A stretch of DNA of 34,203 bases from a virus. The notes below the pieces were generated by a model. The model had not been told where the DNA came from and ran no database searches. It saw only the letters and a program-made list of their open reading frames with translations. The DNA is taken from the IMG/VR virus record IMGVR_UViG_3300044798_000068, positions 1 to 34,203 of that record, one strand, 5' to 3'. This document shows positions 13,619-31,199 of this stretch, piece after piece (position 1 is the stretch's first letter; each line of letters begins with the position of its first letter). The position numbers and the translations under genes are program-made.

Positions 13619-13620
13619 CC

Positions 13621-15719: not shown

Positions 15720-15722
15720 CCC

Positions 15723-17759
15723 ATGAACCAGTACGGTCCACCAAATCCTGTAGGAATCTTCGGTCCTGGCACACAGCCATCGGCGCCGAGTTTCGTTCCC
15801 CAGATCGCGTCGCTTGGCGATTTGATGGACTCCATCACTCAGCGCAGGATCCAACTTGAGAAGATGGACCGCTCAGATGAGGCGCTGGCCGAGAAGGAAG
15901 CCTACGGTCGTCGCAAGCAAGACATCATTGAGAAGAAGAACGACGCCAAGGACGAGTTCGAGCGCCAGAGACACAACCAGGAAGCGCGCAAGACAGACTA
16001 CGCCGCCATCGGTTCCGGACGCAACCCTGGAACGTCCGTCCGGTGGGTAAATGGCCAGCCCGTCACGGTCAAGTGGAAGTACACCGGCGATGCTCCCACC
16101 CTGGCAGACCCCCCCCCCCAGGAGACTGCCCCGGACGCTCAAACTGCACTAGACACTCAGACCGCGCCGGGGCCGACCGCGCCGGGGCCGGCCCCTACTC
16201 CTACGCCATCGGAACCGCAGGCTCCCCCCCAGGAACAACCGCTGCCACTTGGTGGACCCGCTGTGATGAACTTGCCGTTTGCCTTGGCACAGCGCCATCT
16301 CCCACCTCCGGTGGCTACGGCATCGCCCGACGGGACGACCCAGGTTGACCCTCAACTTGATGCTCTCATAGAACGCGCGCCGCCTCCCCAGGAGCCAGCC
16401 CCGACCCTCCAGCCACCCCCGGCGTTGCCGCCAGCATCACCGGCCTCGGCGACTACCCCAACGCATGACGGCTCCGCCACGGCCCAAACTGGCCCACAGC
16501 CTCAAGCGAACGCGCTGTTTGTGCCAGGCCGCGATATCCGCGGATCGGCCATGCAGATGCCGAGGAACCCAGCCGGCGGGCGGTGGGTGGCCACGTCTGA
16601 CGACGGTACCGAGGTAGACAGCGTCGACCCAGGCGAGGCCCGCGCTGCACGAGCGGACGAAAACCGACGCGCCATAGCTTCCACCGATGCCTTACTCGCG
16701 GACCCATCCACGGAGATTAACCCGCAGCTCCTCCACTACCTACTGTCTAAGAAACAGGCCTTGCTGGCCGATATGTCACCTGCTGAAATCAATCAGGTGT
16801 ACGGACAGCAGCAACGGGCGGAACTTCAGGGCAACCAGATAGCCAGCACCGAGGGGATGCAGGATAAGAGTCTCGCGTCCATGGCGGAGCGTTCGGCCAA
16901 CCAGCTCGCCTCGAAGGAGAAGCTGGCCACAGCCAAACTGGCGGCCAAGAAGTACCCGCGAACCGGCTCACCTGGGCAGGTCAGTCTGTCAGGGTTGAAA
17001 CTCGCAGCGCAAGGCGATGGTGACTTCATCAGTATCCCAACGACCAACAGAGGGCTCCCGCAGCCCAATAGGCTTATCGCGCAGGTGACTTCGGATTGGC
17101 GCTCATGGGCAGGAGATCAGGATCTGAAGACGCAGATGAAGGGGCTTCGTCGTCTCTCCATGGCCCAGAACAACATCGACGCGAATGGTCCGCACTCCGG
17201 GGTAGTGAATATTGAGGCGGTCTTCAACTACCTTGGGTTCCTCCGAGGCGGGGTGCCTATCCAAAATGAAACCAAGGAGATGATCTCCCACCGCCGAACT
17301 TGGGGGGACTGGTTTCACGGGTTTCTTGCCAACGCTCCAGATCTCGCCGTGCTCAACGCCAAGTGGGAAAAGGGCGAAGAACTTACGATGGAAGAAACCA
17401 ACAGGGCCATCAACAAGATGTCGCCAGGGGAGCAAGCGCGTATCCGTGAAGGCATCATGGAGTCGAAAAAGGTCATGGTTACGCAAGTCGCCGCGTCGCT
17501 AAACCCATTCTCCAAGCGGTACGCCAACATGACCGGGCCAGGAGGCCACCTACTCAGACAGGCCGCCGTCTCCCTGGTGAACACGGAACTTGAGGCAGCT
17601 GGACTGCCACATGACTATAACCCGTTCACGGATACGAGATCCACCGGCGAATCGCAGTTCCTGAAGCGAGAAGGCGAGCAGGCGGGTGGAAGCCCAGGCG
17701 AAGCCAAGGGCGGGAAGCTCTCTGACCAGCAAATGCTCGATGCTCTGAAGGGGTTGTAG
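15723..17759 (+). CDS. Proline-rich internal virion protein
   Basis: This encodes 678 residues. The first 100 residues include a charged, coiled-coil-like helix (ALAEKEAYGRRKQDIIEKKNDAKDEFERQRHNQ). Residues about 130-270 are extremely proline/alanine/threonine-rich (PTAPGPAPTPTPSEP and similar) and must be unfolded. The rest alternates charged helices (NRRAIASTDALLADP, MAERSANQLASKEKLATAKLAAKKY) with a compact C-terminal part. No known family is recognised. By position it is an internal or ejection protein. An 11-base C run (16109-16119) and a 7-base C run (16224-16230) lie in the proline-rich part, so slippage could change the reading frame. A weak start region, with no clear Shine-Dalgarno, follows the previous stop. 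Confidence 0.6.
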   Translation: MNQYGPPNPVGIFGPGTQPSAPSFVPQIASLGDLMDSITQRRIQLEKMDRSDEALAEKEAYGRRKQDIIEKKNDAKDEFERQRHNQEARKTDYAAIGSGRNPGTSVRWVNGQPVTVKWKYTGDAPTLADPPPQETAPDAQTALDTQTAPGPTAPGPAPTPTPSEPQAPPQEQPLPLGGPAVMNLPFALAQRHLPPPVATASPDGTTQVDPQLDALIERAPPPQEPAPTLQPPPALPPASPASATTPTHDGSATAQTGPQPQANALFVPGRDIRGSAMQMPRNPAGGRWVATSDDGTEVDSVDPGEARAARADENRRAIASTDALLADPSTEINPQLLHYLLSKKQALLADMSPAEINQVYGQQQRAELQGNQIASTEGMQDKSLASMAERSANQLASKEKLATAKLAAKKYPRTGSPGQVSLSGLKLAAQGDGDFISIPTTNRGLPQPNRLIAQVTSDWRSWAGDQDLKTQMKGLRRLSMAQNNIDANGPHSGVVNIEAVFNYLGFLRGGVPIQNETKEMISHRRTWGDWFHGFLANAPDLAVLNAKWEKGEELTMEETNRAINKMSPGEQARIREGIMESKKVMVTQVAASLNPFSKRYANMTGPGGHLLRQAAVSLVNTELEAAGLPHDYNPFTDTRSTGESQFLKREGEQAGGSPGEAKGGKLSDQQMLDALKGL

Positions 17760-17760
17760 C

Positions 17761-20010
17761 GTGAACATCAAGGACCTCGAAGGCATCAGCAACGAAAAGC
17801 TTCAGTTCATCGTAGACAACGGCGATCCAGAAGGGCAGCTACACCCGCTCGCCGTGCAGGTGCTACAGGCTCGCGCTGGTACGGGGACACCACAAGACCT
17901 TGAGCGACCGGCAGAGCAAGGCGTTCCCGCTGGAATCGCGCGCCCCCCCGGCCTTCCCGTCCAAGCCACAGCCGCGCAGCTCCACGCCGACCCGAAGGCG
18001 GCAGCAGAGCGCAGCATGCTTCCACTTCCACACCACGGCGTACGTCAGTTTGCCGAGGACACCACCGCAGGCCTGGCAGGTGGGCTGTACTCCGGAGTCC
18101 CTGGCCTTGCTGCTGGCCTCGAAGCAGCCGGCGAGCTTGGCGATGCACTGGGAACAGGTGGAGCGCACAACATCTTCCCGAGACCTGGCCAGATACGTCG
18201 CGCCATGGATGGGTCGCCGCTGGGTTCTGTTGTGTCGTCTGTGGTCGGGGCGGCTGTGCCACTCGTTGGGCAGACCGGGCTTCTCGGCAAGACCGCCAAG
18301 GTGGTTTCAGACGCTTTCTTGGCACCCGCCGCCAACATCTACCAGAACCTCGCTGGAGAGGCTCCAGGCCTCACCAGGACTGTCGTAGCGGGCGCCGGGA
18401 CTGGGATGGCCATCGGCGCAGGAGAGGCGGCTATCCGTCGCGCACCAGCGGTGGCCAAGGCCCTTGGGAAGGTTCAGTCCGGCCAGCCTGTGACCGACCA
18501 GGTCCCGCCCGTGGACATTGGCAACGAACTACTTATCCCGGGAGCTTTGGGGGGGGTCTCTAGCATTCTTCCTGGCAGTTCCTCTTGGGCCACGAACCCG
18601 CGAACCCAGAGGGGACAGCGGGCCGCTCTCTTCGCGCGAGACAAGGCGTCCGGAGCGCACGAGCAGGAACCACTACGAAGCCTTATGGAAGGGCAGGCAG
18701 GCATCGAGCAGGCGAAGAAGATCGCCAACGAGAGTTACCAGGACCAGCTCCCAGCGCTGGAGCAGCCGGTGCTCGCCCAAGAGCGCAGAGCTATCGGGGA
18801 GCTGGAGCGCGATCGCGACACGTTCAAGGCATTCGCCATGCGAAGCCGCGGGGTGGCCGCAGACGAGACTTCGCGGGCTATCATGAGCAAGCTGGAGGCC
18901 CAGAGGACAGCAACGCACAAGACGCGCGAAGCGGACATGCAAGACCTCGACGAGCGCACCGCCAGGCAGCTTTTTGACACGTCGGGGTTCTTCGGCAAGA
19001 CGGTGGAGCTGATCGGCGGCTTCAAGAGCGAAGGGGGCCACGGGGCGCTCCTTCCCAATGGCAGAGCGCTGGCGACTGCCGCGAGCGAGTTGCAGGACTT
19101 CCTACCCCAGAACGGCGCGACCATGCGCGACTTCAGGAACGCCATCAAGTACACTAAGTCGAAGGCGCAGTCAGGCACCGACGAGCAGCGCTGGCCCTAC
19201 GAGATGCTTCTCGGCGAGCTGAAGGCGCACACCAAAGCCGTCGACCCGACCGGGAGCGGAGACTCGCCAGGGCTGTATGCGCAGTCCAACGAGCGATTCA
19301 GGACCGACACCAATAGGCAGGAGCGCACGAAGCAGATCGTGTTCGGTGGACCCGAGGAGGCTAAGGTCGAGTTGTCGCCGCAGGTTGAGGCCCGTGGTCG
19401 ACGGGGGCTCATGCAGCTTGGGGATGGGACAGCCTCCGCTATTGCCAAGATCCCCCACCGCGAAGAACTCATCGCGAACGGTTACGGCCCCGAGGTCGAA
19501 GCGATGGAAGGCCGCCTGCGCGACATCGAGCAGATGTCCTACGAGACGCAGCAGTGGCACGACGATGCCGTGGCCGCGGTGAAGGCCGACGTGAAGGCGA
19601 GGTTGGTCGACATCAGTCGAGAACTCCAGCCGCAGACAGATGCAATTCTGGAGTCGAAGGTTGCACAGGAGGCCTCGAAGCTCAGACTCAGTGGGCTCAC
19701 CCGCCCCCTCACAGAAGCCGCGCTCGGCGCGACTAGTCATTCGCCCGTCTACGCTGGCGCGCGCGCCGCCGACGCGGCCGACAAGATTGGCGGTCGCATC
19801 GCACAGCCCATCGCCTCGGCCATTGCCTCGCACTCCCCGGACGCTTCGGTCCTGCGATCTTCGATCCCGGGCATGATGGGCATCGCCACAGAAGTCTCGC
19901 GCGGGCCAGCTTCAAAGAGTATGATCGACGGGGCGCGTAAGCAGCGAGAACGCTTCAAGAACTCGATAGGCTCCACGTCGGAGTACCTCAAGAAACGATT
20001 GTTCCAATAG
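17761..20010 (+). CDS. Large ejection-type protein with membrane-like helices
   Basis: This encodes 749 residues from a GTG one base past the previous stop. After a 100-residue N-terminal part rich in proline and alanine, residues about 95-240 contain glycine/alanine-rich apolar stretches (TTAGLAGGLYSGVPGLAAGLEAAGEL; LGSVVSSVVGAAVPLVGQTGLLG; TVVAGAGTGMAIGAGEAAI) that look like membrane-inserting segments. The rest is long charged helices. This is the profile of the largest podovirus internal proteins, which exit with the DNA and build a channel across the cell envelope. I see no lytic transglycosylase motif in it. Family naming is not possible by eye. Confidence 0.65.
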   Translation: MNIKDLEGISNEKLQFIVDNGDPEGQLHPLAVQVLQARAGTGTPQDLERPAEQGVPAGIARPPGLPVQATAAQLHADPKAAAERSMLPLPHHGVRQFAEDTTAGLAGGLYSGVPGLAAGLEAAGELGDALGTGGAHNIFPRPGQIRRAMDGSPLGSVVSSVVGAAVPLVGQTGLLGKTAKVVSDAFLAPAANIYQNLAGEAPGLTRTVVAGAGTGMAIGAGEAAIRRAPAVAKALGKVQSGQPVTDQVPPVDIGNELLIPGALGGVSSILPGSSSWATNPRTQRGQRAALFARDKASGAHEQEPLRSLMEGQAGIEQAKKIANESYQDQLPALEQPVLAQERRAIGELERDRDTFKAFAMRSRGVAADETSRAIMSKLEAQRTATHKTREADMQDLDERTARQLFDTSGFFGKTVELIGGFKSEGGHGALLPNGRALATAASELQDFLPQNGATMRDFRNAIKYTKSKAQSGTDEQRWPYEMLLGELKAHTKAVDPTGSGDSPGLYAQSNERFRTDTNRQERTKQIVFGGPEEAKVELSPQVEARGRRGLMQLGDGTASAIAKIPHREELIANGYGPEVEAMEGRLRDIEQMSYETQQWHDDAVAAVKADVKARLVDISRELQPQTDAILESKVAQEASKLRLSGLTRPLTEAALGATSHSPVYAGARAADAADKIGGRIAQPIASAIASHSPDASVLRSSIPGMMGIATEVSRGPASKSMIDGARKQRERFKNSIGSTSEYLKKRLFQ

Positions 20011-20018
20011 GAGAAACC

Positions 20019-20429
20019 ATGGGTCAGCAAGACTTCCAGAGAATCAAGATCGCAGCGCCGGACGTCCCGGCGGGCAACGGCACCGTGACCCTGTTCGACT
20101 CCACGGTACATCTTAAAGGTGGTCTTGCCCAGAATGGCATTGGCCGTATTCAGCTTTCCTTCCCTGGGCTGGACCAGGCAAGCGCCACGGCCGGGCTCAT
20201 TGGCTACTCCAGTCCTAACAAGGGTGCCACATGGTATCCTTTCAAGTTTGGCGACACGAACATGCCCAGGACAGTGGCAGCAGACACTGGCGCCGATCAT
20301 GATGCGTATGACTTCTTTGTGGGGACCGAGGACGACGTGAAGTTTACGCTTACTGTTGGGGGGACCGCGCCGGTGGTATGGTATCCACTGATCTTCGCTC
20401 AGGTTGGTAACGTCCACAGCGGGACATAG
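20019..20429 (+). CDS. Small beta-rich virion protein
   Basis: This encodes 136 residues after a good Shine-Dalgarno (TAGGAG). It is compact and beta-rich (NGTVTLFDSTVHLKG, GRIQLSFPGLDQ, DDVKFTLTVGG, APVVWYPLIFAQVG) with no signal peptide and no cysteines in a binding pattern. It stands between the ejection proteins and the tail fibre genes, so it may be a fibre-base or tail-tip protein. I do not recognise it. Confidence 0.6.
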   Translation: MGQQDFQRIKIAAPDVPAGNGTVTLFDSTVHLKGGLAQNGIGRIQLSFPGLDQASATAGLIGYSSPNKGATWYPFKFGDTNMPRTVAADTGADHDAYDFFVGTEDDVKFTLTVGGTAPVVWYPLIFAQVGNVHSGT

Positions 20430-20431
20430 AT

Positions 20432-22174
20432 ATGGGGTTCCTCCCGCGCATCAAGGTAAAGCAGCCAGTCTCCGACCGACAACCGGGCGGAGACTCCTTG
20501 CTCCCTGTGATGCAGAAGGAACTTTGGCCATTTTTCCAGCAGGTTCGCAAGGTTCTGAACTGGGCCGTGGACTGGCTCGGGCTCGTGGGGGTCGACGATA
20601 CCGATACCCCAGGAACGCTTTGGGACAAGCTTCTGGTCGGCACTGGGCTTACCAAGACAAAAACGGGCATCACAGGGATGCGTACCTATACCCTCGACGC
20701 CAACGCGACGGCCATCGTAGACACCATTGTCAACAACCCGACGTTGGTGCAGATTTTTCAGACCACCGTAGTCCAGACCGTTGACCCCGCCGTCGAAAGT
20801 ACCTATCTCTACTCCGCCCTTGTTCCAAACCCACTGTTTCGTACTCCCGTGAGAGCGCTGTCTGCGATAGGGCAAGGTTATGGATTGAATTTCGACCAGT
20901 GGGAACCGATCGGCGGGCTCTTCACCTGGAGGGGGCTCTTCGACACGCAGGTTTATGGCTACGGAGTTGGTGGGGCCAATTTTCCGTTGGCCGTTGATGA
21001 TCGATTCGTCGTCGTCGGTTCGGTCAGGACTGGTTACGATCCGGGGATCTACGACGGCACCTATGAGATCGTGATCGCAGGTGAGGATGGAGTGTCGCCC
21101 GCGGTGTTCCGCCGCACCTCGGACGCCAATACCTCGGCTACCCTGTGCGTGGGAATGGTCACGCAGATTACGGGCGTAGGCGCAGCCAATGAAGGGAAGT
21201 TCTACACCGTTGGCAGCAATGGGGGCGACGATATCATCCCCGATACCACGGCGATCTCATGGGTTGTGTCGGACACCCGCGGGAGCGCCGACGCCTACAA
21301 TCTGCTGACTGCCGCGCAGGTTTCTGACCCCGCTGTCAGCACGGAGACCTTGTCGTACTCTATTACCTACACTGGCCCTGGAGAGGCCGCTTTCCCCGAC
21401 GACTTCGTTTCACTCGTCGGGGTGCCTGGCCTGAACGCGCTTCCAGCTGGGCTCTACGGCCATCAGATCGAGGGCGCCTGGCTGCTGGACTATGACCCCG
21501 CATTCACAACCACGATCAAGGCAGTCCTCATCGACTGCGATACCGGCGGGCTCCCGGAAATTCTCGTCGCAGAATCGCCCCCCATCACGGCCACAGCTCC
21601 CGCTCCACTCACGTTCCAGGGGAATCTTGCCGCGCCCTACACGTCCTCGCCGTCGAAGCGACTGCTCCTCGAGTATCGCATCAGCACCGACTCGACAAAT
21701 CCGGTCACGCTATACCTGCTCTACAACAGCCCCAACCGGAAGACCTGGGTCAAGGTCCCATTCCGACTCACGAGCGGCTTCTCCTCGGTGCCGGCCGGGG
21801 CGATCACTCCAGGACTGTTCCAGCCGGGCGAGGCGAGCGTGACCACCGTAGCCGGGATCATCCCAGCCCCAACGTCAAACTCGCTCAACGTGACCGTCGA
21901 TGCCGGGCTGGTAGTCAATGGTATGCAGACGGCAGGGCTCATCCCAGGCACGATCTTCTGGCTCACGTTTATCACCGCCTGCAAGATTGCCAACGGCGCA
22001 GCCGTAAGTGCCGGAGAGGCGCCATTCTACCTTCAAAACATGGCTGGCTCGCCGATGGACATTGATTGGAACGATCTCATCCCACAGACAGGCGGGCGCA
22101 TCGGCGTGCAGTACAAGACATCAGGAATTCCACAGGCCCCATGTTTCCAACTCGTAGCAGGACCAATCTCATGA
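20432..22174 (+). CDS. Putative tail fibre protein
   Basis: This encodes 580 residues, starting two bases past the previous stop. The N-terminal 60 residues (SLLPVMQKELWPFFQQVRKVLNWAVDWLGL) form an amphipathic helix that may be the attachment part. The remainder is beta-rich and glycine/threonine-rich, with sections such as GIYDGTYEIVIAGEDG and LTFQGNLAAPYTSSPSKRLLLEYRI. No enzymatic motif is recognised. Together with the downstream genes this forms the receptor-binding module. Its stop overlaps the next start (ATGA at 22171-22174), so the two are coupled. Confidence 0.6.
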   Translation: MGFLPRIKVKQPVSDRQPGGDSLLPVMQKELWPFFQQVRKVLNWAVDWLGLVGVDDTDTPGTLWDKLLVGTGLTKTKTGITGMRTYTLDANATAIVDTIVNNPTLVQIFQTTVVQTVDPAVESTYLYSALVPNPLFRTPVRALSAIGQGYGLNFDQWEPIGGLFTWRGLFDTQVYGYGVGGANFPLAVDDRFVVVGSVRTGYDPGIYDGTYEIVIAGEDGVSPAVFRRTSDANTSATLCVGMVTQITGVGAANEGKFYTVGSNGGDDIIPDTTAISWVVSDTRGSADAYNLLTAAQVSDPAVSTETLSYSITYTGPGEAAFPDDFVSLVGVPGLNALPAGLYGHQIEGAWLLDYDPAFTTTIKAVLIDCDTGGLPEILVAESPPITATAPAPLTFQGNLAAPYTSSPSKRLLLEYRISTDSTNPVTLYLLYNSPNRKTWVKVPFRLTSGFSSVPAGAITPGLFQPGEASVTTVAGIIPAPTSNSLNVTVDAGLVVNGMQTAGLIPGTIFWLTFITACKIANGAAVSAGEAPFYLQNMAGSPMDIDWNDLIPQTGGRIGVQYKTSGIPQAPCFQLVAGPIS

Positions 22175-23547
22175 AACGAATCGCGCGCATTCTTTTCGCC
22201 ATCATCCTCGGATTCGCCACCGCCAACCTGGCCGCCGCGGAAAGCTCATCCGGCTTCGCCTACGTCTGCTCGCCGACTGGCAAGTTGTGCCTCCAGCAGT
22301 TCCCCAATCTCAGCCTGTACGCCGGCGCCGGCGTCGCCTACGTCGGCACCGGGACCACGACCAGGACCGCCACCGGCACGGGCATCTGGATCGGCACTGG
22401 CACTGCCAGCCTGACCCGAACCCAAAGCGCATCCGGGACCGCCACCACAACTACCACCGGCACCGGCACGTATTCCACGACTCAAACGTTATCGCATACC
22501 ACTGTTCTGACGAACACGATCACCCTCACGGGCACCCTCGCGAAGACATTTACGCTCACTTCGGTCCTGACCATCACGGTGACCGGCACCGGGACTGCCA
22601 CGGCCACGGGGTCGTCCTCCGGGACTGGAACTCTTTCCGGCTCGGCTACTGCGACCGGATTGGCATCGAGCACCATGACCGGGACAAAAACTGGAACCGC
22701 CACGATCACGGGGACGTGGGCGAAGACCTGGACCGGGAGCGGGACCTGGACCTTTACCGCGACGGCTTCAGCGGGCAAGACCGTGAGTGCCACCGTCACG
22801 GTCACCACCAGCGCCACCGGCACTGCCACCGGCACCGGCACTAAAACCAGCACTTGGACCGCCACGTCGGCATCGACCGCCACGAGCGCAACCATCGTCA
22901 GCAGTCCAACCATTTCCGGCGCGCCCGATAGAACCACCCTGCCCCGCGCCGCATCTGCTGTCCCGCAGACTGGTGGCGCACCCCTATGCTCTGCTTCGGA
23001 CCACGTGCATCCTCTGGCCGACGTGGTGGGGGGAGATCGCTACCTGATGGCAGTGACCGAATGCCCTGCGTGGGCGACGCAGTACGCGCCCTACGTCTCG
23101 GACCCAACGTGCCTTGACGATGTCGCCTCGCCCACGTTGATCCTACCAGCCGTGTTCACCACCACGATCTCTGGCGGAGTCTGGACGCTCGCGACGTACA
23201 AGCAGCAGAATGGCTGGATCCCGCCTGGCAGGATTGGGATCTGGGTGTGGCTCAAGTCGACTAGCGTCGCGATAGTCCAGTTTGATTTCTACACCTGCGA
23301 TAGCTCCGTGCCGGGGACTTGGCTGGGAGGCACCTATTTTGCCGTAGGCCAAGCCAGCCAGGATTGGACGTACCTGTACGATGCGGTCTCGCTGCCCTAC
23401 GGCGTCATCCTGACCAGTCTACAATTGCTGTGTCTGGTCGTGACCGCGACGACACCCGATGGAACGCCGACCGTGACCCTCGGGACCACGATGGCACACG
23501 CAACGCGAATCAACGGGCCATTCTACTCACCGGAACCACTGCCGTAG
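22171..23547 (+). CDS. Exported threonine-rich repeat protein with tail-fibre motif
   Basis: This encodes 458 residues from the ATG at 22171, which overlaps the previous stop (ATGA); a longer in-frame ORF from 22066 would overlap the fibre gene. Residues 1-23 form a textbook Sec signal peptide: KRIAR, then ILFAIILGFATANL, then AAA before E24. Residues about 58-240 are a threonine/glycine/alanine/serine repeat with alternating T-x-T strands (for example TGTGTATATGSSSGTGT). That pattern fits a beta-helix or beta-solenoid like those of ice-binding or adhesin proteins. At residues 275-282 ASDHVHPL matches a motif I associate with tail fibres. The C-terminal 170 residues are a beta-rich domain with several cysteines. 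A secreted or surface fibre is the best reading; the reason for a signal peptide in a virion gene is unclear. Confidence 0.6.
   Translation: MKRIARILFAIILGFATANLAAAESSSGFAYVCSPTGKLCLQQFPNLSLYAGAGVAYVGTGTTTRTATGTGIWIGTGTASLTRTQSASGTATTTTTGTGTYSTTQTLSHTTVLTNTITLTGTLAKTFTLTSVLTITVTGTGTATATGSSSGTGTLSGSATATGLASSTMTGTKTGTATITGTWAKTWTGSGTWTFTATASAGKTVSATVTVTTSATGTATGTGTKTSTWTATSASTATSATIVSSPTISGAPDRTTLPRAASAVPQTGGAPLCSASDHVHPLADVVGGDRYLMAVTECPAWATQYAPYVSDPTCLDDVASPTLILPAVFTTTISGGVWTLATYKQQNGWIPPGRIGIWVWLKSTSVAIVQFDFYTCDSSVPGTWLGGTYFAVGQASQDWTYLYDAVSLPYGVILTSLQLLCLVVTATTPDGTPTVTLGTTMAHATRINGPFYSPEPLP
22330..22890 (+). repeat. Coding repeat region rich in ACCGGCAC-like units
   Basis: The threonine/glycine stretch is encoded by degenerate repeats of ACC/ACG/ACT and GGC/GGG codons, giving many ACCGGCACCGG-like words (for example around 22458, 22584 and 22816). 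The complementary strand reads as an unbroken valine/proline frame, which is why an apparent leftward ORF (22482-22937) is only a shadow. Confidence 0.6.
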
Positions 23548-23565
23548 AAAACAGGAGACGTAAAC

Positions 23566-25299
23566 ATGCCGATCTACAATATTCCGCCTCCCGCGCTCGC
23601 CACCGCTAGCACGCAGGGAGCCGAAACCGCGGCCGAATACCAAGAGAACCGCGACCAGCTCCCCATTACCGCCGCCGACGCTCTGTTCCTCCATTCCGGG
23701 CTTCCGTTCACCAGCGGCGAGGCGATCACTGCGGGGTATGCCACCGGCCCCAAGAACGCATCGGGAGTGCCCAAGCTCTACCGGGCCAGCGCGGCGTCTG
23801 CCAGTACGCCCGGAATCTGCGTCGGCATCGCCACCGCGACCGTAGGCGCGGCCGACCTTGCCATAACGGCGCAGTCGATGGGCCGCTCCGGGGTCATCCC
23901 AGACGCGGCCTGGGATGCCGTCCCCGCCGTGACCGACGTGGATAAGCCGGTCTATCTCAGCAAAACTGCCGGGAAGGTTACACTCGACGTTTCGGCCTTC
24001 GCGACTACCGACAGGGTACAACAGCTCGGGGTCCTCGACGTTGGCGGCACCGGGGCGTGCAGGATTCTAATCGACATTCTCGGGAATCTCACGGCCACGC
24101 AGGCGCAGGCGCTGGCTTTGCTCAGCGGCAACAACACGGGCGACGAAACCAAGGCGACGATTGCGGCCAAGACGGGCATCACGGCGGCGCAGATGGACCT
24201 TGTTGCACTCGGTGCAAAGTCAGCCATCGCGGTCACGCTGAACGCGTTCAACACCTGGGCCGATGGGCAGACAATCGTCACGCCAACCGTGGGGTCAAAG
24301 ACCTTGCAGGTGACTACAACGGGCGATATCGACATCCGCGGGTTGACCGAGACGCAGGCCAAGGCCTTCCTGGCCAACTACCTTTCTACGGCTGCGGGCT
24401 CCGTGGTGGACGTTTCCATTGTCGGTACATCCTCGACCATGACCGTGACGGCGAAGGCCTACGGCTCCACGCTTAACGGCACGGTCATTTCCGGCACGGT
24501 GCTCGTTGGGTCGGGGACGATGGTCCTCGGGCTGGCCCCACAGGTCAGCAACCCGCCTGCTCTCGCCACCGCCGTCTCGCCGGGGGCGATGCCTGCGACC
24601 GATCTCACTCAAGCGCAGATGAATCGGGTCTCCGCCGCGCTGACTGCTGGAGGGTGGACGGTTCCACGGATCATCTACTCGGCGGCAATCACGGCGGCTG
24701 CAACGGTGGTTGTTGGCGGGGCCGGGGCTAGCCCAGCAATGGCGAACCTGGTGTCGTCTCGAAAATACACGTTTCTATTGCAACTGAACGCCCAGGTGCT
24801 TGCCACTGCCAATGTCATGTACCAGGCGAACGGATCCGACGCCAACGGCTTCAGCACGTACATCCTGGACAACAACGCTACGCCGGGCAACGCAGTCGGA
24901 CTGTACGGGGCGGGTGTGTTCAACAACAAGGTCCTCGCCTCGAAGTTCGTAATCGAACCACGGGTAAACGGCGTCTCGTTCACAGCCGGATCGGGGAAGC
25001 AGGGATCATCGTCGGGGCTTGGCGCCGTCTTTCTGACCACCGGCTACACCACGACGGACTATACGTCGATCACGGTAAACCTCGGAGCGAACGCGCGCAG
25101 GGGATACCTGACGGTAATCGAGGAGACTCCGGCGTCCGCGGTACTCACGTCGAGTTATTACCTCCCCGATGTAGCAAATGACTTTGACCCGTCGGTGACT
25201 GGGCTGGCGGGAAGAGTGGGCGCCCAGGTCGGGACCATCGACGAGGCCAAGGCGTGGATCAAAACCGGAACGGGCACCACAGATTGGACGGCGATCTAA
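23566..25299 (+). CDS. Putative tail fibre protein with fibre-shaft repeats
   Basis: This encodes 577 residues with a good Shine-Dalgarno (CAGGAGAC). Residues about 50-170 (GEAITAGYATGPKNASGVPKLYRAS; VDKPVYLSKTAGKVTLDVSAFATTDRVQQLGVL; GTGACRILIDI) match a tail-fibre domain I know as 'GEALT.G ... PYYLS...G.LT ... VQRLG...ATELL.D'. Next comes SGNNTGDETKATIAAKTGI, then a threonine/serine-rich shaft, and at the end AKAWIKTGTGTTDWTAI, a common fibre C-terminal ending. No signal peptide is seen. It is probably a receptor-binding fibre of the virion. Confidence 0.65.
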   Translation: MPIYNIPPPALATASTQGAETAAEYQENRDQLPITAADALFLHSGLPFTSGEAITAGYATGPKNASGVPKLYRASAASASTPGICVGIATATVGAADLAITAQSMGRSGVIPDAAWDAVPAVTDVDKPVYLSKTAGKVTLDVSAFATTDRVQQLGVLDVGGTGACRILIDILGNLTATQAQALALLSGNNTGDETKATIAAKTGITAAQMDLVALGAKSAIAVTLNAFNTWADGQTIVTPTVGSKTLQVTTTGDIDIRGLTETQAKAFLANYLSTAAGSVVDVSIVGTSSTMTVTAKAYGSTLNGTVISGTVLVGSGTMVLGLAPQVSNPPALATAVSPGAMPATDLTQAQMNRVSAALTAGGWTVPRIIYSAAITAAATVVVGGAGASPAMANLVSSRKYTFLLQLNAQVLATANVMYQANGSDANGFSTYILDNNATPGNAVGLYGAGVFNNKVLASKFVIEPRVNGVSFTAGSGKQGSSSGLGAVFLTTGYTTTDYTSITVNLGANARRGYLTVIEETPASAVLTSSYYLPDVANDFDPSVTGLAGRVGAQVGTIDEAKAWIKTGTGTTDWTAI

Positions 25300-25838
25300 T
25301 GAACTGGAAATCACTGCTAGGAGCAGCAACGCTGGCGGGTATTCTCGGGGCCACTGGCGGGCAGCTTTTCAACCTCGGGAACTACGGCCCCGTCGTCCAC
25401 AACTACTCGCTGCCGAGCACCGACGACGCATTCAAGGTGGCCAGCACGGCGGCGAGCAAAACCGTCTTCACTCTAGCGACCGATCAAAAGCTCATGGGGC
25501 TGTGCCTGACGCCTAGGACGGCATTCGCTGGCACTGGCATCTCGGCAATATCCTGCTCGGTTGGGACGGCGACAGGGGGCAACGAGGCCATCTACGTACC
25601 GCTCCTGGATGTCATGCAGACGACGGGGACCAAGTGCGTCGGGGGACTCTACAGCGGTTCAGACTTGGCGACGCCAGACACCAATAAGGCCGTCGTGGTC
25701 TATTGCACCGCCACCGGGGCATCATTCGGCAACGGGGCGGCCACTGTACTTACACAGGGCGCCGTCTCGGTTTCGATCATCACTGTGCAGCTCCCGGCCG
25801 CAGCGGTGGTGGGGACGCCCGGACTGGACGGCGGCTAA
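25299..25838 (+). CDS. Small fibre-region protein with N-terminal hydrophobic segment
   Basis: This encodes 179 residues. The ATG overlaps the previous stop (TAATG), so translation is coupled. Residues 3-22 (WKSLLGAATLAGILGATGGQ) are hydrophobic and glycine-rich. With a single basic residue at position 4, this is either a weak signal peptide or a membrane anchor. The remainder is beta-rich with four cysteines (LCLTPRTAFAGT, SAISCSVG, GTKCVGGLYSG, VVVYCTATG). I do not recognise a family. It may be an accessory of the fibres on either side. Confidence 0.55.
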   Translation: MNWKSLLGAATLAGILGATGGQLFNLGNYGPVVHNYSLPSTDDAFKVASTAASKTVFTLATDQKLMGLCLTPRTAFAGTGISAISCSVGTATGGNEAIYVPLLDVMQTTGTKCVGGLYSGSDLATPDTNKAVVVYCTATGASFGNGAATVLTQGAVSVSIITVQLPAAAVVGTPGLDGG

Positions 25839-27712
25839 TGCGCTTGGCGCTGGCGCTCATGGTGGCATTGTGGGCGATTCCGGCGCGGGCTGCGCAATAC
25901 TACATCGCCACGACAGGAGACGACGCGGACCCTTGCACGCTCGCTGAGCCGTGCCTGACCATCCCGCACGTCCAGGCCGTGATCAATGCTGCGGCGGCGG
26001 ACGCTGACGTGGTGACCAGCCTAAGAGGCGGGACGTACACGGTGGCGGCCGGGCTTGAATTCGTAGCCGCTGACTCGGGCTCCGCTGGCCACACCAACGT
26101 GTGGCAATCGTACCCGGGCGAGAACGCGATCATTAGCGGCGGCGTCACCATCACGGGATGGTCGGCATTCTCAGGGGACATCTTTCGCGCGGCGGTGACT
26201 CCAGGGTGGACGTTTCGCCAGCTCTACGTCAACGGTGTGCATGCGCAGCGGGCGCGCGGGGCACTGAACCCGGCAGGGTGGGTCAAGACCGCCACTGGCT
26301 ACACGGCGCCAGACGGCAGCATGGCCGCATGGGGGAACAAGTCTGCCATCGAGATTGTCACCTATCGCGGCTGGGAAGTCGCTCGATGCAAGGTATCCAC
26401 AATAGTAGGCGACGCAGTGACCATGGGCGACCCGTGCTGGCACAACTACCTCTTCGCTGTGAACAACTACGGCCTGAACGCGGTGCCGAGCTGGATCGAG
26501 AATGCCTATGAATTGATGGCGTCTGGTTCGTGGTATCTTGACGCTGCGGCGAACTACGTCTACTACTGGCCGCCGAGCGGCTCGATGTCCGGGTTGACCG
26601 TCATCGCTCCGAAGGCAGCGGCACCCCTCGTGAGTATCAGCGGCGTCGCTCGCCTGTCGCTCGTCAACCTGACCATCGAGCATTCCAACTGGCTCGACCC
26701 CGACGATGCCGATGGATACGTGGGATGGCAGAGCGGGAACATGTTCACCACCAGTGGGACAGCCCTGCGCATGCAAGTCGCATCCGTCGCGGTGAACAAT
26801 TCCAGCAACGTGACGCTTTCTCAGCTCACATTGCAGCACCTAGGATCGCGGGCGATTGCCGTCTATGGAAACAGCCACGATGTCACCGTTGCGAACAACG
26901 CCTTCATCGACAACGCGGCCGGGTCCATCGAGATTGGCCACGTCCCGCTTGACGACGTTTCGGTCAGCGGTCCAGGGCCTACCACTCAAGAGACGAACAT
27001 CACGGTTCGCGGCAACTCCATTCAGACCGGGAACGAGTTCGACTACTTCGACAATGGGGCTATTTTTGCTCCCTCGATTGTTGGGTCAACCATTGCCAAC
27101 AACGAAACGGGCCTTACGGACTGGAATTCCATCTCCATCGGCTGGGGCTGGCTGGGGACGGTTGCCTATTCGTCTAATAATTCCATCGCCAACAACACCA
27201 CGCGAGGGGCGTGCGCGAGGCTTACCGACTGCGGCAGCATCTACAGCAACGGGCCACAGTCGGCGCTAGACGGCCACGCGGACGGCCTGCGAGTTACGGG
27301 CAACTTCACCTCTGCCACAAAACAGTGTCTCTATCCCGATGCTGCCACCAACTGGGCGACCTGGACCGGGAACGTCTGCAATTCAACCGGCGCCTTTTTC
27401 GTGATCAACAACCCGGCCGCCAACGACGTTGTGATTACCGGAAACTACAGCAACGTGCCGAATTCCGTAGATTCAGGCACGGGCGACACAGTATCCCCCA
27501 ACGTCACCAACGCGGGCGTCGCGCCGTATGCATTCGGCACGGCCGCAAATGCCATTGTTTGCGGGGCTGGCGTCGGGTACGGGGTAAAGCCAGGCGCGCA
27601 GCCAAACGGCATCGCGCTACCCGCAAGCACCTGCACACCGCCAACACCCGCGACAGCCCTGTGGCCAGTGTGGGGCGACGCCAACAGCGGATTGTATTCC
27701 ACGCACCCCTAG
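25838..27712 (+). CDS. Exported beta-helix protein, glycosidase/depolymerase-like
   Basis: This encodes 624 residues from the ATG at 25838 overlapping the previous stop (TAATG); a longer in-frame ORF from 25703 would overlap the gene before. Residues 1-18 (MRLALALMVALWAIPARA) are a Sec signal peptide. The mature start AQYYIATTGDDADPCTLAEPCLTIPHVQAVINA plus YPGENAIISGG and FRQLYVNGVHAQRARG is the pattern of bacterial right-handed beta-helix proteins, including GH141-like glycosidases. Residues about 260-560 are clear beta-helix rungs (VTVANNAFIDN, ITVRGNSIQTGN, STIANNETG). A cleaving or binding role on host polysaccharide is likely, but I cannot point to a catalytic pair. It lies at the end of the tail module. 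Confidence 0.65.
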   Translation: MRLALALMVALWAIPARAAQYYIATTGDDADPCTLAEPCLTIPHVQAVINAAAADADVVTSLRGGTYTVAAGLEFVAADSGSAGHTNVWQSYPGENAIISGGVTITGWSAFSGDIFRAAVTPGWTFRQLYVNGVHAQRARGALNPAGWVKTATGYTAPDGSMAAWGNKSAIEIVTYRGWEVARCKVSTIVGDAVTMGDPCWHNYLFAVNNYGLNAVPSWIENAYELMASGSWYLDAAANYVYYWPPSGSMSGLTVIAPKAAAPLVSISGVARLSLVNLTIEHSNWLDPDDADGYVGWQSGNMFTTSGTALRMQVASVAVNNSSNVTLSQLTLQHLGSRAIAVYGNSHDVTVANNAFIDNAAGSIEIGHVPLDDVSVSGPGPTTQETNITVRGNSIQTGNEFDYFDNGAIFAPSIVGSTIANNETGLTDWNSISIGWGWLGTVAYSSNNSIANNTTRGACARLTDCGSIYSNGPQSALDGHADGLRVTGNFTSATKQCLYPDAATNWATWTGNVCNSTGAFFVINNPAANDVVITGNYSNVPNSVDSGTGDTVSPNVTNAGVAPYAFGTAANAIVCGAGVGYGVKPGAQPNGIALPASTCTPPTPATALWPVWGDANSGLYSTHP

Positions 27713-27739
27713 CCCCACAGCACCCAGACCGAAAGCACT

Positions 27740-28210
27740 ATGAGCGACCACCCCAAAGATCAAGTCACCACGGACGAACGGGCGGCGATTCGAGAAGAAT
27801 TGCGCGACGAAATCAGAGCCGAAAGCCGCTCGGCTCATCCCGCTGAATCTACCGAGGAGATGCGGCGAGTGGTTAGGGCAGAAGCGCGGCCACTCATTGC
27901 TGCAGCTGTTTCGAAGCATGCGACTGACTGCGAGCATGAGGGGCCACTCCATACGATGGTGGAACACCTTGGAAAAAAGGTAGATATCATGGATACACGA
28001 GCAAGCCAAAGAATGGACAAGATGGAAAACAGGCAGGCAGACGACTGGAAAGAGTTTTTGCTTGTACAGGCGGCGCTGAACAAGTATCTCGGAGAGCGCG
28101 ATTTCAAGCGGTGGTTCGTGCCCATAGTGGCCTCAATGGTTGGGTCATCGCTGGCCGCGGCTATCGTGATGTTCGTGCTCAAGCATTTTTTGTTCAGGAT
28201 GCCCCAGTGA
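27740..28210 (+). CDS. Coiled-coil protein with C-terminal membrane segment
   Basis: This encodes 156 residues. The first 60 are charged and helical (TTDERAAIREELRDEIRAESR), the middle is coiled-coil-like (HLGKKVDIMDTRASQRMDKMENRQADDWKEF), and residues about 127-150 (VPIVASMVGSSLAAAIVMFVLKHFLF) form one membrane helix with an arginine after it. It lies just before the lysis genes. It might be a holin-associated or inner-membrane spanin-like protein; no family is recognised and no Shine-Dalgarno is clear. The orientation, with long soluble part on one side, would place it in cytoplasm or periplasm depending on topology. Confidence 0.6.
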   Translation: MSDHPKDQVTTDERAAIREELRDEIRAESRSAHPAESTEEMRRVVRAEARPLIAAAVSKHATDCEHEGPLHTMVEHLGKKVDIMDTRASQRMDKMENRQADDWKEFLLVQAALNKYLGERDFKRWFVPIVASMVGSSLAAAIVMFVLKHFLFRMPQ

Positions 28211-28253
28211 CACTAGGACGCCCACAAGGTGAGATGTGGAAGGCGGTGCGGGG

Positions 28254-28472
28254 ATGATCGTGAGCCTCTGGAAGCGTTTCACGGAGTGGTTCTGGTTCTG
28301 GGTCACTTCGCGGCCGGCGATTTGTTGCACCTGCAGGCGAATCTACATCAGCGATTTCTTCTGGAATCCATGGTGGCGTGAGCCTGGCCAGGGCCAGGGT
28401 AAGCGGCTCGCGTGCTCGGAGAAGTGCTGCGAGAAGGCCTCGCCGGGGTCCACGGCGGAAGGTGGTCCATGA
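28254..28472 (+). CDS. Small tryptophan- and cysteine-rich protein
   Basis: This encodes 72 residues from the ATG at 28254; a GTG at 28236 is an alternative. Its stop overlaps the next ATG (ATGA at 28469-28472), which supports it as a real gene. The N-terminal third is aromatic (WKRFTEWFWFWVTSRP) and could bind a membrane. Cysteines are arranged as CCTC at about residues 24-27 and CSEKCC later, so a metal-binding site is possible. Function unknown. A possible seven-codon leader (ATG at 28234, stop overlapping this ATG) precedes it. Confidence 0.55.
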   Translation: MIVSLWKRFTEWFWFWVTSRPAICCTCRRIYISDFFWNPWWREPGQGQGKRLACSEKCCEKASPGSTAEGGP

Positions 28473-28831
28473 TCCACAGTGGCTTCTCCCGCAAGCACAA
28501 GCGGGACGCGACCCACGCGGAAATCGCCGAGGCCCTGGAGTCCTTCGGATGGTCCGTGTGGGACACGTCGAAGTTCGGGAATGACTTCCCCGATATGGTG
28601 ATAGGGCTCGGCGGGGTGACCGACCTGGTCGAGGCGAAGAGTGGCGAACGTGCTCGATTTAGCGAGGGGCAGAAGGAATTCGCAGAGAAGTGGCGAGGGG
28701 CGAAGGTTGTCAATCTGCCCTCGAAGCAAGCGGCCATCGAGTGGGCCACCCGCACGCGGCACGAGCGGAGACGCCAGAACGATGCGAAGGCATTGGCGGC
28801 GCTCCCAAAACGCAAGGAGAACGCGGCATGA
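28469..28831 (+). CDS. PD-(D/E)xK nuclease, VRR-NUC-like
   Basis: This encodes 120 residues, starting by ATGA overlap with the previous gene and with GGAAGG upstream. It shows the PD-(D/E)xK fold: FGNDFPDMVIG with PD at residues 41-42, and LVEAKSG with E55 and K57. Q68 in SEGQKEFAEKW and the strand AKVVNLPS follow, and the order helix-strand-strand-helix fits. The family is close to VRR-NUC and small resolvase-like phage nucleases, which cut branched or double-stranded DNA. Residues beyond 95 are basic. It lies among lysis genes and may act in DNA processing or in host-genome degradation; the role is inferred. Confidence 0.75.
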   Translation: MIHSGFSRKHKRDATHAEIAEALESFGWSVWDTSKFGNDFPDMVIGLGGVTDLVEAKSGERARFSEGQKEFAEKWRGAKVVNLPSKQAAIEWATRTRHERRRQNDAKALAALPKRKENAA

Positions 28832-28874
28832 AGCCGGAGCCACATCCCCCACGGGCCGGAGAAGGAGGAGACCA

Positions 28875-29444
28875 ATGGCTGATTTTGACGACTACTTCGA
28901 GGATCTGGAATCGCACGAGGGTTGCACCACGTGGCTCTACTGCGACTCGCGCGGTTTCGTCACGATTGGGATCGGCAACCTCGTGGCGTCCCCGAGTGCG
29001 TGCGCCAAGCTTCCGTTTCGGCGTTCCTCGGGAAAAATCGCCAGCGTCGACGAAAAGTACGGCGCGTGGGCGCGCGTGAACGACGCCTTCGACAAGGCAA
29101 AATCGGCGGCCTACTACCGTGGCCTAACAAACCTGCGCCTGACAGATGCATTCGTGCACGCGCTGGTGGCACACCGACTAGAAGCGGAGTTCATTCCCGG
29201 CGTCACTCGGCTGTGCCCGGGCTTCGCGAATTTCCCGCTGCCCGCCCGGCGCGCGCTCGTCGACATGGCCTACAACCTAGGCGTCGGCGGGCTGGGGATG
29301 TTCCCCCACATGCTCGCGGCGTGCAACGCTGGCGACTGGGAGATGGCGGCGCACCAGTGTCACCGCTCTACGTGCCGGGACATGAGAAACGCCTGGACCG
29401 CGCAGATGTTTATCGATGCTGACGCAACGCCCAACGTGCTATGA
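28875..29444 (+). CDS. Endolysin, GH24-type lysozyme
   Basis: This encodes 189 residues after a strong Shine-Dalgarno (AAGGAGGAGACC). It cleaves peptidoglycan to release the virions. The catalytic pattern of GH24 is complete: E15, D24 and T30 in the E-8-D-5-T spacing (ESHEGCTTWLYCDSRGFVTIGIG). The later ARRALVDMAYNLGVGGL and helices with DWEMAAHQC fit the helical lobe. The N-terminus MADFDDYFEDLESHEG is acidic and has no signal peptide, so release needs a holin. It is a normal length for the family. Confidence 0.88.
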   Translation: MADFDDYFEDLESHEGCTTWLYCDSRGFVTIGIGNLVASPSACAKLPFRRSSGKIASVDEKYGAWARVNDAFDKAKSAAYYRGLTNLRLTDAFVHALVAHRLEAEFIPGVTRLCPGFANFPLPARRALVDMAYNLGVGGLGMFPHMLAACNAGDWEMAAHQCHRSTCRDMRNAWTAQMFIDADATPNVL

Positions 29445-29465
29445 TCCCAGAGAAAGAAGGTGACC

Positions 29466-29663
29466 ATGTCCGTCCTATCCGTCGTGATTGCTCTCTGCGT
29501 TGTCGGGGTGCTCCTGTGGTTGATCAACTCCTACCTGCCCATGCAGCCGCCATTCAAGACCTTGGTCAACGTGGTTGTTGTGATCGCCGTGGTGCTGTGG
29601 CTGCTCTCAGCGTTCGGCGTGCTCGGCTCGATCAGCGGCGCGCGCCTGCCCCGCGTGCGATGA
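29466..29663 (+). CDS. Thivi_2564-family small membrane protein, holin-like
   Basis: This encodes 65 residues from the ATG at 29466 with AAGAAGG five bases upstream; a GTG at 29460 is less likely. Two membrane helices are clear: residues 2-23 (SVLSVVIALCVVGVLLWLINSY) and about 36-56 (VNVVVVIAVVLWLLSAFGVLGS), joined by LPMQPPFKTL. The pattern 'LLWLINSYLPM...LVNVVVVIAVVLWLL' matches the small Thivi_2564 family. These lie near endolysins and are thought to be holin-like; the holin role is context only. It follows the endolysin by 21 bases. Confidence 0.75.
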   Translation: MSVLSVVIALCVVGVLLWLINSYLPMQPPFKTLVNVVVVIAVVLWLLSAFGVLGSISGARLPRVR

Positions 29664-29694
29664 GGACCGCGAAAAAAACGGAAGGAGCGATCAC

Positions 29695-30000
29695 GTGAAA
29701 ATCAATCTGAACAAAATCCTTGCACTTCTCGGCGCCGTCGCCGAATTCGCTCCTGACGTGGCCGGCGCTTCCACCTGGCTCTCCGCACACGGAGTCGGGT
29801 GGGCATCCTACGCAGCTCGCGGTCTCGGTGTGATCGCGCTCCTGATGGCATCGCTACCCCAGATCATCAAGCGGCTACGCGCACCCCTGGCGCAACTTGG
29901 GCTTGCCACTCCGCCCGGCGCACAAGCCCCGTGGATCCCCGGCAGGGATCTCGCTGCCCCAACCCCAGCCCCAATCACCAAGGAGAACCCAAACCCATGA
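29695..30000 (+). CDS. Small membrane protein in the lysis cluster
   Basis: This encodes 101 residues from a GTG with GGAAGGAG upstream. The residues LLGAVAEFAPDVAGASTWLSAHG and then WASYAARGLGVIALLMASLPQII suggest one or two membrane helices, followed by a basic KRLRAPL and a proline-rich tail. The stop overlaps the next ATG (ATGA), so it is coupled to the lipoprotein. Holin or accessory of lysis is possible; no family is recognised. Confidence 0.6.
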   Translation: MKINLNKILALLGAVAEFAPDVAGASTWLSAHGVGWASYAARGLGVIALLMASLPQIIKRLRAPLAQLGLATPPGAQAPWIPGRDLAAPTPAPITKENPNP

Positions 30001-30113
30001 AGCGCATTCAAATCACCCTCGCAGCTATCGCTCTCGCCATTGCTCTCGCGTCCTGCAAGACCACACCGACGAACCCCGACAGCTTTTTAGCTGGGGCGAG
30101 CGCATCCGTGTGA
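29997..30113 (+). CDS. Tiny lipoprotein, possible outer-membrane spanin
   Basis: This encodes 38 residues, starting by ATGA overlap with the previous gene. Residues 1-19 are a type II signal sequence (MKRIQITLAAIALAIALAS) with a lipobox LASC and the lipidated C20. Only 18 residues remain (KTTPTNPDSFLAGASASV). That size and place match small outer-membrane spanins (Rz1-like), which finish lysis in Gram-negative hosts. It has only two prolines and no clear inner-membrane spanin partner, so the call is tentative. It ends the late operon, 14 bases before the end of the leftward operon. Confidence 0.6.
   Translation: MKRIQITLAAIALAIALASCKTTPTNPDSFLAGASASV
30074..30096. other. Hairpin at the meeting point of the two operons
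   Basis: CAGCT and AGCTG (30080-30084, 30089-30093) pair around TTTT, flanked by CCC and GGG pairs with a two-base bulge. It lies in the lipoprotein gene, just beyond the last stop of the leftward operon, so a leftward transcript would fold it soon after its end. No T run follows on the minus strand, so it is a weak terminator candidate at best. Confidence 0.3.
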
Positions 30114-30127
30114 CGACGGCCTGCAGG

Positions 30128-30391
30128 TCAGTAGCACGGTAGCTGCGAGTCAAAAACCGCCTCTTGCCGTGCGATCGCATCCTTCACGGCCAGGTGCTCG
30201 CCGGTGCGCCGAACGGTCGCAGGACGTGCATTAGGAGACTCGGCCCTAGGGACCTCTGGCGCGGGCAGCAGCGCCCCTTCTATGTCCGCGCAGTAGTCGG
30301 CGCAGTAGCAGGACTCGCAGCCGCAGCCGCGCCGCGACACCCGAGCCTCTAGCTGGGCGGCGATTGCGCGGAGAGTTGTGGCGGTGGCCAT
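30128..30391 (-). CDS. Small cysteine-rich protein at the operon end
   Basis: This encodes 87 residues from an ATG at 30391; a TTG at 30427 would add 12. A helical start (MATATTLRAIAAQLEARV) leads to a cysteine group CGCESCYCADYC (about residues 22-33), then a proline-containing middle and a helical end (EHLAVKDAIARQEAVF). The cysteine pattern suggests metal binding. No good Shine-Dalgarno precedes the start. It ends 14 bases from the stop of the late operon. Unknown function; it may instead be read as the continuation of the overlapping frame upstream. Confidence 0.4.
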   Translation of the reverse strand: MATATTLRAIAAQLEARVSRRGCGCESCYCADYCADIEGALLPAPEVPRAESPNARPATVRRTGEHLAVKDAIARQEAVFDSQLPCY

Positions 30392-30548
30392 GTGCGGAGT
30401 ATGGCCATATGTGGCAACGGCTTGCAAGCGAAGAGTGATTTAGCGCTTGACTGCCCACCCGCCGAGGTATCATCCTCTTGTCTGTAGTTAGTCCAGGATT
30501 CCAGAGATTTCCGCATACGCACTGGCACAGTCCAGCTTCGTTCTTCAC
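30246..30548 (-). CDS. Uncertain small ORF overlapping the operon end
   Basis: A 100-residue frame starts with GTG, overlapping the stop of the 30545-30697 gene (GTGA). Its first 45 residues (CQCVCGNLWNPG, then RMIPRRVGS) are protein-like with a CxCxC group, but the last 50 are arginine-rich and overlap the better frame of the 30128-30391 gene. Either it is a shadow or the true gene shifts frame into that one. Confidence 0.25.
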   Translation of the reverse strand: MKNEAGLCQCVCGNLWNPGLTTDKRMIPRRVGSQALNHSSLASRCHIWPYSAHGHRHNSPRNRRPARGSGVAARLRLRVLLLRRLLRGHRRGAAARARGP

Positions 30549-30697
30549 GATTTCCCCTCCGGCAAGTCCTCGCACTCATGTCTCAAACATTCAAAAGTCT
30601 CTGCCGCGCTCGAACACGCCTCGGCCATCCGTTTCATTTCCTCCTCAGCCTCGCGAATTGCGATTCGCAAACGCTCCCGTTTATCCGATTTGTTCAT
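30545..30697 (-). CDS. Small charged helical protein
   Basis: This encodes 50 residues. It starts 17 bases inside the end of the transglycosylase gene, with AAAGGAAAG five bases before the ATG. The sequence is almost entirely charged helix (KRERLRIAIREAEEEMKRMAEAC) with a short cysteine-containing C-terminus. No function is known. The same 17 bases around the start codon (GAAAGGAAAGCATGAAC on the minus strand) precede the gene at 32554, so the two share a translation signal. Confidence 0.55.
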   Translation of the reverse strand: MNKSDKRERLRIAIREAEEEMKRMAEACSSAAETFECLRHECEDLPEGKS

Positions 30698-31199
30698 GCT
30701 TTCCTTTCCGCTCCGCTCTGGCGCGCATCGCCCGCCAGAACCGCGCTACCGTGTCTACTATCGCTCGGCTGTATCTGGTGGACCCGCATCGTCTGTGCCC
30801 TGAGTACACGCTGAGCCCGCTGAGCCCGCCGCACATGGTGAGGCACCCCGCCAGGTGCCGCGCTGTCAGCTCAAGGTTGCGGTCAGGTTTGAGCAGGTCT
30901 TCCACGTCCGCGCCATGGGCTGCGCTCCCACCGACGCGAATCTGACCAAGACCGTAGTCCCCACGTCCGCTGCGAGCATCCGCGCGGCAGTGCGATTCGT
31001 GAGCGATGACCACCACCACCAGGACTGGGTGGAGTAGCCAACGGTGCGCCTCAGCGCCCACCACCGGCGCCAGGTACGCCGCGCGCGGGCCGCAGAGCAC
31101 GGTCAGTGCGGCCTCGGTGGTCGTCTCTGCGTGTGCCGGTCCGCACGTGGCCGTCAGGCAGATGGCGGCGCCGAGCGCGACGATAAACGCGCTGATCAT
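30681..31199 (-). CDS. Exported lytic transglycosylase, SLT type
   Basis: This encodes 172 residues; the ATG at 31199 overlaps the upstream stop (ATGA). Residues 1-24 (MISAFIVALGAAICLTATCGPAHA) are a Sec signal peptide. The catalytic region is HPVLVVVVIAHESHCRADARS with catalytic E68, followed by GDYGLGQIRVG, the usual 'GAxGLxQ' part of soluble lytic transglycosylases. The later NLELTARHLAGCL and SVYSGHRRC also fit. It cuts peptidoglycan from the periplasm, without a holin. It is encoded in the leftward operon with replication genes, unlike the late endolysin at 28875, so the timing may be early. Possible roles are cell-wall entry, host-wall remodelling or superinfection exclusion; these are inference. 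Confidence 0.75.
   Translation of the reverse strand: MISAFIVALGAAICLTATCGPAHAETTTEAALTVLCGPRAAYLAPVVGAEAHRWLLHPVLVVVVIAHESHCRADARSGRGDYGLGQIRVGGSAAHGADVEDLLKPDRNLELTARHLAGCLTMCGGLSGLSVYSGHRRCGSTRYSRAIVDTVARFWRAMRARAERKGKHEQIG

Follow-up and report, generated by a model that had tools for sequence, protein, structure and literature searches.

Tailed-phage fibre genes are usually read as parts of the virion, and the question raised by this locus is why several genes of such a module open with signals for export. The window (the whole 34,203-base IMG/VR virus record IMGVR_UViG_3300044798_000068) encodes TerL, portal and Hc3-like genes. The initial annotation reported that two of its genes begin with clear Sec signal peptides and a third with a hydrophobic segment, inside a tail-fibre cluster, and set three explanations side by side: secreted phage effectors or enzymes, membrane anchoring, or export of some fibres by the host. 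Genes of the window are named below by their first position, and the genes of its relatives are our own calls. The features are the following.

20432..22174, plus strand: non-exported fibre-like protein of 580 aa, without signal peptide; N-terminus conserved with the relatives G002 and G003
22171..23547, plus strand: predicted exported fibre-like protein of 458 aa, with signal peptide, YVC..LC segment, stalk, DHVHP and a C-terminal beta-rich domain
22171..22239, plus strand: predicted Sec signal peptide of 22171 (residues 1-23, cleavage AAA/ES), its position kept in the G002 homologue
22348..22935, plus strand: T/S/G-rich repeat stalk of 22171 (residues ~60-255, alternating T-x-T-x), common to G002
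23566..25299, plus strand: non-exported fibre-like protein of 577 aa, with a local homologue at the same place in the relative G001
25299..25838, plus strand: small protein of 179 aa with hydrophobic N-terminus, weak signal peptide candidate, 4 cysteines
25838..27712, plus strand: predicted exported GH141-type glycoside hydrolase of 624 aa, a right-handed beta-helix with the GH141 insertion domain
25838..25891, plus strand: predicted Sec signal peptide of 25838 (residues 1-18, cleavage ARA/AQYY); nearly all homologues have a signal peptide at a similar spacing to the domain
27227..27229, plus strand: Asp464 of 25838, aligned with the essential Asp523 of BT_1002
27338..27340, plus strand: Asp501 of 25838, inferred second essential GH141 residue (BT_1002 Asp564), Asp in 54/54 sequences

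The two N-termini described as clear Sec signal peptides are borne out. The protein of 22171 begins with MKRIARILFAIILGFATANLAAA, followed by a predicted cleavage and ESSS, and that of 25838 with MRLALALMVALWAIPARA, followed by a predicted cleavage and AQYY; both are strong by a rule-based scorer and homologues agree, with n-, h- and c-regions and a signal peptidase I site present in each. The scorer is home-made and is not SignalP; when checked, it found OmpA, MalE, Lpp and LamB, PhoA being missed by its first version. Scores were 10.7 for 22171 (the highest in the window), 9.4 for 25838 (revised rule; 7.4 earlier) and 6.8 for 25299, while none of the 25 other genes of the window scored. Since the scorer at its loosest setting also passes about 5% of arbitrary starts that have 60 open codons, single calls need the support of homologues. 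As 16 of 1017 arbitrary starts reach a score of 7, the call for 25299 (MNWKSLLGAATLAGILGATGGQLF) is by itself not beyond chance. The N-terminus of this protein is hydrophobic as described, but the signal peptide call is weak and the cleavage site poorer, and no homologue was found in viral contigs or INPHARED. We did not accept it as a certain signal peptide, its score falling inside the background.

All three start codons overlap the preceding stop, as had been claimed: the ATG of 22171 and the TGA of 20432-22174 share bases (ATGA), as do the starts of 25299 and 25838 with the TAA before them (TAATG). We also looked for homologues with a later start and no signal peptide; both the G002 homologue of 22171 and the GH141 homologues of 25838 retain the signal. 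That the starts are wrong, or the hydrophobic stretches functionless, is hardly credible, even with the background of about 5% under the loosest rule, given the conservation in homologues, the overlapping starts and the covariation of signal peptides with cysteines described below.

The assignment to a tail-fibre cluster holds by position and by synteny with relatives, although a family match is absent. The genes come after large cysteine-free virion-module proteins and before a phage lysozyme at 28821-29444. PHROGs and Pfam searches on the fibre-module proteins gave GH141 as the sole match, with zero matches for 20432 and 23566. No match to INPHARED was found by megablast of 15000-34203 or by tblastn of the 22171, 25299 and 25838 proteins, and scans of viral contigs with any of these three alone gave no confirmed match. 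In the preceding part of the window (13615-20429), five consecutive virion-module genes contain zero cysteine in 2263 residues, and their place and sizes suggest ejection proteins.

A search with TerL gave the close relatives G001-G003 (TerL 78-84% identical), whose fibre modules are mosaic and partly relocated. A 20432-type gene precedes an exported gene in the window, G002 and G003 (3/3 phages), the gene directly after the 20432 homologue beginning with a signal peptide in both relatives; a scan with the fibre N-terminus found only these two. In G002 the signal peptide gene follows directly, with the same 4-base overlap as in the window, and its product aligns end to end with 22171 (39% identical), retaining the signal peptide, the V-C-x6-C segment, the T/S/G-rich stalk and the C-terminal domain. 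At the equivalent place G003 has a signal peptide gene of 781 aa with 20 cysteines, which has one segment in common with the G002 protein, and the fibre-typical HVHP motif occurs in both 22171 and the G003 protein. An AlphaFold model of 22171 from two sequences was too poor (pLDDT 37) and was left unused. The position of the fibre pair differs: it lies between the homologue of gene 1267 and TerL in G002 and G003, but some 20 kb further on in the window (20432-23547), a module translocation between close relatives.

On the grounds of fold, insertion domain and catalytic pair, 25838 is predicted to be a GH141-type glycoside hydrolase. Pfam GH141_M matches it with E 5e-6 and 26.9 bits, just under the cut-off of 27, and the best phmmer match in the PDB is BT_1002 (5mqp; 4e-18). 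With the AlphaFold (AF2) model (pLDDT 84, pTM 0.87), Foldseek places BT_1002 (5mqp) first (E 2e-26, TM 0.74), far above all others, and a BFVD search returned generic beta-helices only. The GH141 family is functionally diverse, and the residues reported as essential in BT_1002 are D523 and D564 (PMC12786026). D464 of 25838 pairs with D523 in the phmmer alignment, the numbering offset of 5 being inferred from Q336, and D501 sits at the conserved YxD position and is equated with D564 by spacing and conservation, not by residue-level superposition. Asp464 is found in 53 and Asp501 in all of 54 sequences.

Scanning GTDB genomes with the GH141 core region, we found 62 bacterial loci. Nearly all of these homologues start with a signal peptide, in most cases some 220-260 residues ahead of a common point in the domain, which argues that this is the normal state of the family, kept by the phage copy. 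The GH141 proteins of two other phage backgrounds (L124 and L126) also bear signal peptides, and together with 25838 they form one clade (SH-aLRT 99), to be taken with caution because the branches are long. The bacterial secreted family would fit recently acquired cargo serving the host cell (lysogenic conversion) and not infection. This origin is very doubtful, since the three viral GH141 proteins, coming from different phages, group in a deep clade of their own, the reading frames overlap those next to them in the fibre module, and the searches made found the 22171 type in phage contigs only.

The cysteines bear on export more directly. In the window, 22171, 25299 and 25838 have 21 cysteines in 1261 aa vs 6 in 3420 aa of the other tail-module genes (p 5e-8), and across the window, G002 and G003 the exported proteins have 35 in 1763 aa vs 11 in 1767 aa of the adjacent non-exported fibre (p 3e-4). 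In 25838 there are five putative cysteine pairs, most of them missing from the bacterial GH141 enzymes: cysteines 184/200 are both present in 15 sequences, one of them in 1 and neither in 38, and 459/465 are a pair in the three viral GH141 proteins only. Even cysteine numbers are preferred in exported bacterial proteins (PMC7678975). In the fibre modules of other phages, the mature part contains an even number of cysteines in 35 of 38 signal peptide proteins (binomial 3e-8), vs 33 of 72 proteins without signal peptide (Fisher 1e-6). These p-values, and the one given below for the QSGxVTPGH family, are too small because the members are related, but the split holds across several unrelated families. 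Within the window group the number is even in 4/5 (10, 4, 8, 20), 22171 being odd (7). Enrichment and the even-number rule thus support the predicted export of the signal peptide proteins.

As to membrane anchoring alone, it is disfavoured by this cysteine evidence together with the cleavage-site-like motifs. Under that reading the N-termini would hold the proteins, unreleased, in the inner membrane, for assembly or as exclusion factors; the weak cleavage site of 25299 would agree with it, and phage membrane-bound exclusion proteins are known, such as P22 SieA (PMC10883804). Against this, 22171 (AAA/E) and 25838 (ARA/A) have good signal peptidase motifs, and in the GH141 relatives the fold begins right after such a cleavage site, so that we consider uncleaved anchors very unlikely.

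Signal peptide genes are also found in the fibre modules of other phages. In L124, which comes from a phage contig of 62 kb, and in L126, the GH141 gene adjoins other signal peptide genes of the fibre region. A 445-aa protein of L124 consists of a signal peptide and the C-terminal half of the tail-protein family phrog_5939 (1.7e-33). The INPHARED homologues that were checked are long tail proteins; they lack a signal peptide and have a long N-terminus where L124 has the signal peptide. A 1012-aa protein of the same contig has a signal peptide, then the 'QSGSVTPGHPSLW' N-terminal domain, and a C-terminus matching the S74 fibre chaperone at E 0.0019, under the Pfam cut-off; the signal peptide protein with this S74-like chaperone also has a weak long-tail-fibre match. 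Bacterial contamination was considered as the source of signal peptide genes and rejected, as TerL stands beside them in L126, and TerL, portal and Hc3-like genes in the window.

A scan for the QSGxVTPGH N-terminal domain gave 29 viral contigs. A signal peptide directly precedes the domain in 17 distinct proteins, the one of L151 scoring low, and 18 others start at the domain without it. At least two cysteines within the first 110 residues are found in 17/17 of the former vs 2/18 of the latter (Fisher 4e-8), and all 15 complete members with signal peptide have an even cysteine total. The second domain has both conserved cysteines in 13/13 aligned signal peptide forms, and glycine at both places in the long forms without signal peptide, L140 and L155. 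In this family, different from those of the window, forms without signal peptide exist in which the cysteine pair is absent too, which argues that the signal peptide forms are truly exported. Most QSGxVTPGH proteins without signal peptide have about 157 aa and are usually encoded just upstream of the signal peptide fibre (L132-L160), a candidate docking or assembly partner. The domain gave no convincing match in INPHARED and plasmids and none in 398 Pseudomonadota genomes, and the QSG[SN]VTPGH motif is absent from the exported proteins of the window, G002 and G003. Several contigs have signal peptide genes in runs, the longest of four or more, and in several QSGxVTPGH phages they make up much of the distal fibre region.

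Such proteins give partial substance to the suggestion that the host exports some fibres, since in other phages fibre-module proteins join signal peptides with fibre features (the S74-like chaperone, an N-terminal fibre domain). Export would then let virion fibres fold, assemble into trimers and become disulfide-bonded in the periplasm, and they would dock on virions as lysis opens the inner membrane and the wall. For the QSGxVTPGH phages this is a live rival, because the distal region is largely signal peptide-bearing and the domain is shared with the small non-exported upstream protein; the S74-like chaperone and the weak long-tail-fibre match point the same way, as does, for the window group, the HVHP motif of 22171 and the G003 protein. 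In the window, however, 20432 and 23566 lack signal peptides and are available to the virion, no N-terminal anchor of theirs recurs in 22171 or 25838, and 25838 is without any attachment domain, its beta-helix beginning a few residues after the predicted cleavage site. No precedent, and no report of signal peptides on tail fibres, was found in the open-access literature, subscription journals lying outside the search. We regard periplasmic maturation as unlikely though worth keeping in view, and as equally tentative the general proposition of a two-compartment assembly line in some tailed phages, with part of the receptor-binding fibres made outside the cytoplasm and joined to the virion only at lysis.

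For the window, soluble effectors are favoured because 20432 and 23566 are without signal peptides and 22171 and 25838 are without the N-terminal region of their neighbour. We suggest, with a probability of about 0.58, that the phage exports one or more fibre-derived binding proteins and a glycosidase acting on the host envelope. Of the explanations first offered, secreted effectors or enzymes is thus the one retained: it is well supported for 25838, with GH141 similarity, an intact catalytic pair and signal peptide-bearing bacterial relatives, and for 22171 it is the most fitting of the three. The host Sec system would export 22171 and 25838, and probably also 25299, from the distal tail-fibre module, the first two lacking the N-terminal anchor of the neighbouring fibre. 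As a secreted GH141-type glycosidase, 25838 would hydrolyse a glycan in the envelope or capsule of the host or in its biofilm matrix, and 22171, a putative fibre-derived stalked binding protein, would after export and oxidative folding be located in the periplasm or on the surface. Late in infection both may act on the polysaccharide of the surface, and once the cell has lysed also in the surrounding matrix, passage to the outside occurring at lysis at the latest; the effect would be to release progeny and to eliminate or mask the receptors of the dying host and its neighbours. Counting against this effector reading are the outer-membrane passage before lysis, which export across the inner membrane leaves unexplained, and the odd cysteine number of 22171.

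Exported phage proteins and beta-helix depolymerases are already known. The known GH141 enzymes (BT_1002, Xyn141E, the Wf141 endo-fucanases) are like 25838 in fold, insertion domain, essential Asp pair, Sec signal peptide and size, whereas 25838 is phage-encoded in a fibre module and about 20-31% identical to BT_1002, depending on the method. The beta-helix tailspike depolymerases (KP34 gp57, LKA1 gp49, AP22 gp54) are likewise phage polysaccharide enzymes among fibre genes, but they are virion parts, while 25838 has a signal peptide and no virion-attachment domain, and its fold has TM 0.74 to BT_1002 vs ~0.2-0.4 to their entries. Lambda Lom is an exported protein encoded among tail genes. Together with the T4 RI antiholin (an exported phage protein; PMC8385771), spanins and signal peptide endolysins, it is phage-encoded, exported and envelope-acting like the window proteins; unlike 22171 and 25838, none of these is a fibre-derived stalk protein or glycosidase, and none lies in runs of exported genes filling the fibre region. 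Similar in arrangement are L124, L126 and L132-L160 (IMG/VR), with cysteine-rich signal peptide genes in the fibre region, often adjoining endolysin genes. L124 and L126 have the GH141 gene in common with the window, but no sequence similarity of the signal peptide proteins to 22171 was found, and most of them have QSGxVTPGH, which the window lacks. No close relative of the signal peptide-bearing fibre-module proteins or the GH141 protein was found in INPHARED. What appears new, as a variant predicted from sequence, is the combination of signal peptide-bearing, probably disulfide-rich, fibre-derived proteins with a signal peptide-bearing GH141 in a fibre module.

If many environmental phages export such proteins, receptor-binding predictions from fibre genes would be partly wrong, and phages would have an exported layer remodelling the host surface. 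Soluble fibres or periplasmic fibre assembly would become directly testable, and phage GH141 proteins would be a new source of secreted glycan-active enzymes.

Some neighbouring genes of the other contigs deserve mention. Directly downstream of the exported stalk protein in G002, a 488-aa multi-pass membrane protein (L010:2057-3523, minus strand) resembles polytopic envelope glycosyltransferases by eye, a Pfam search giving no match, and it could modify the T/S-rich stalk. The late region of G003 has a papain-family cysteine protease gene (L011:8679-9476, minus strand; Pfam Peptidase_C1, 1.5e-7). On the fibre/lysis side of L152, L153, L159 and L139, further signal peptide proteins with the mature N-terminus ADMPVK or ADMPLK resemble, by eye, outer-membrane beta-barrels of Alphaproteobacteria and may point to the host group.
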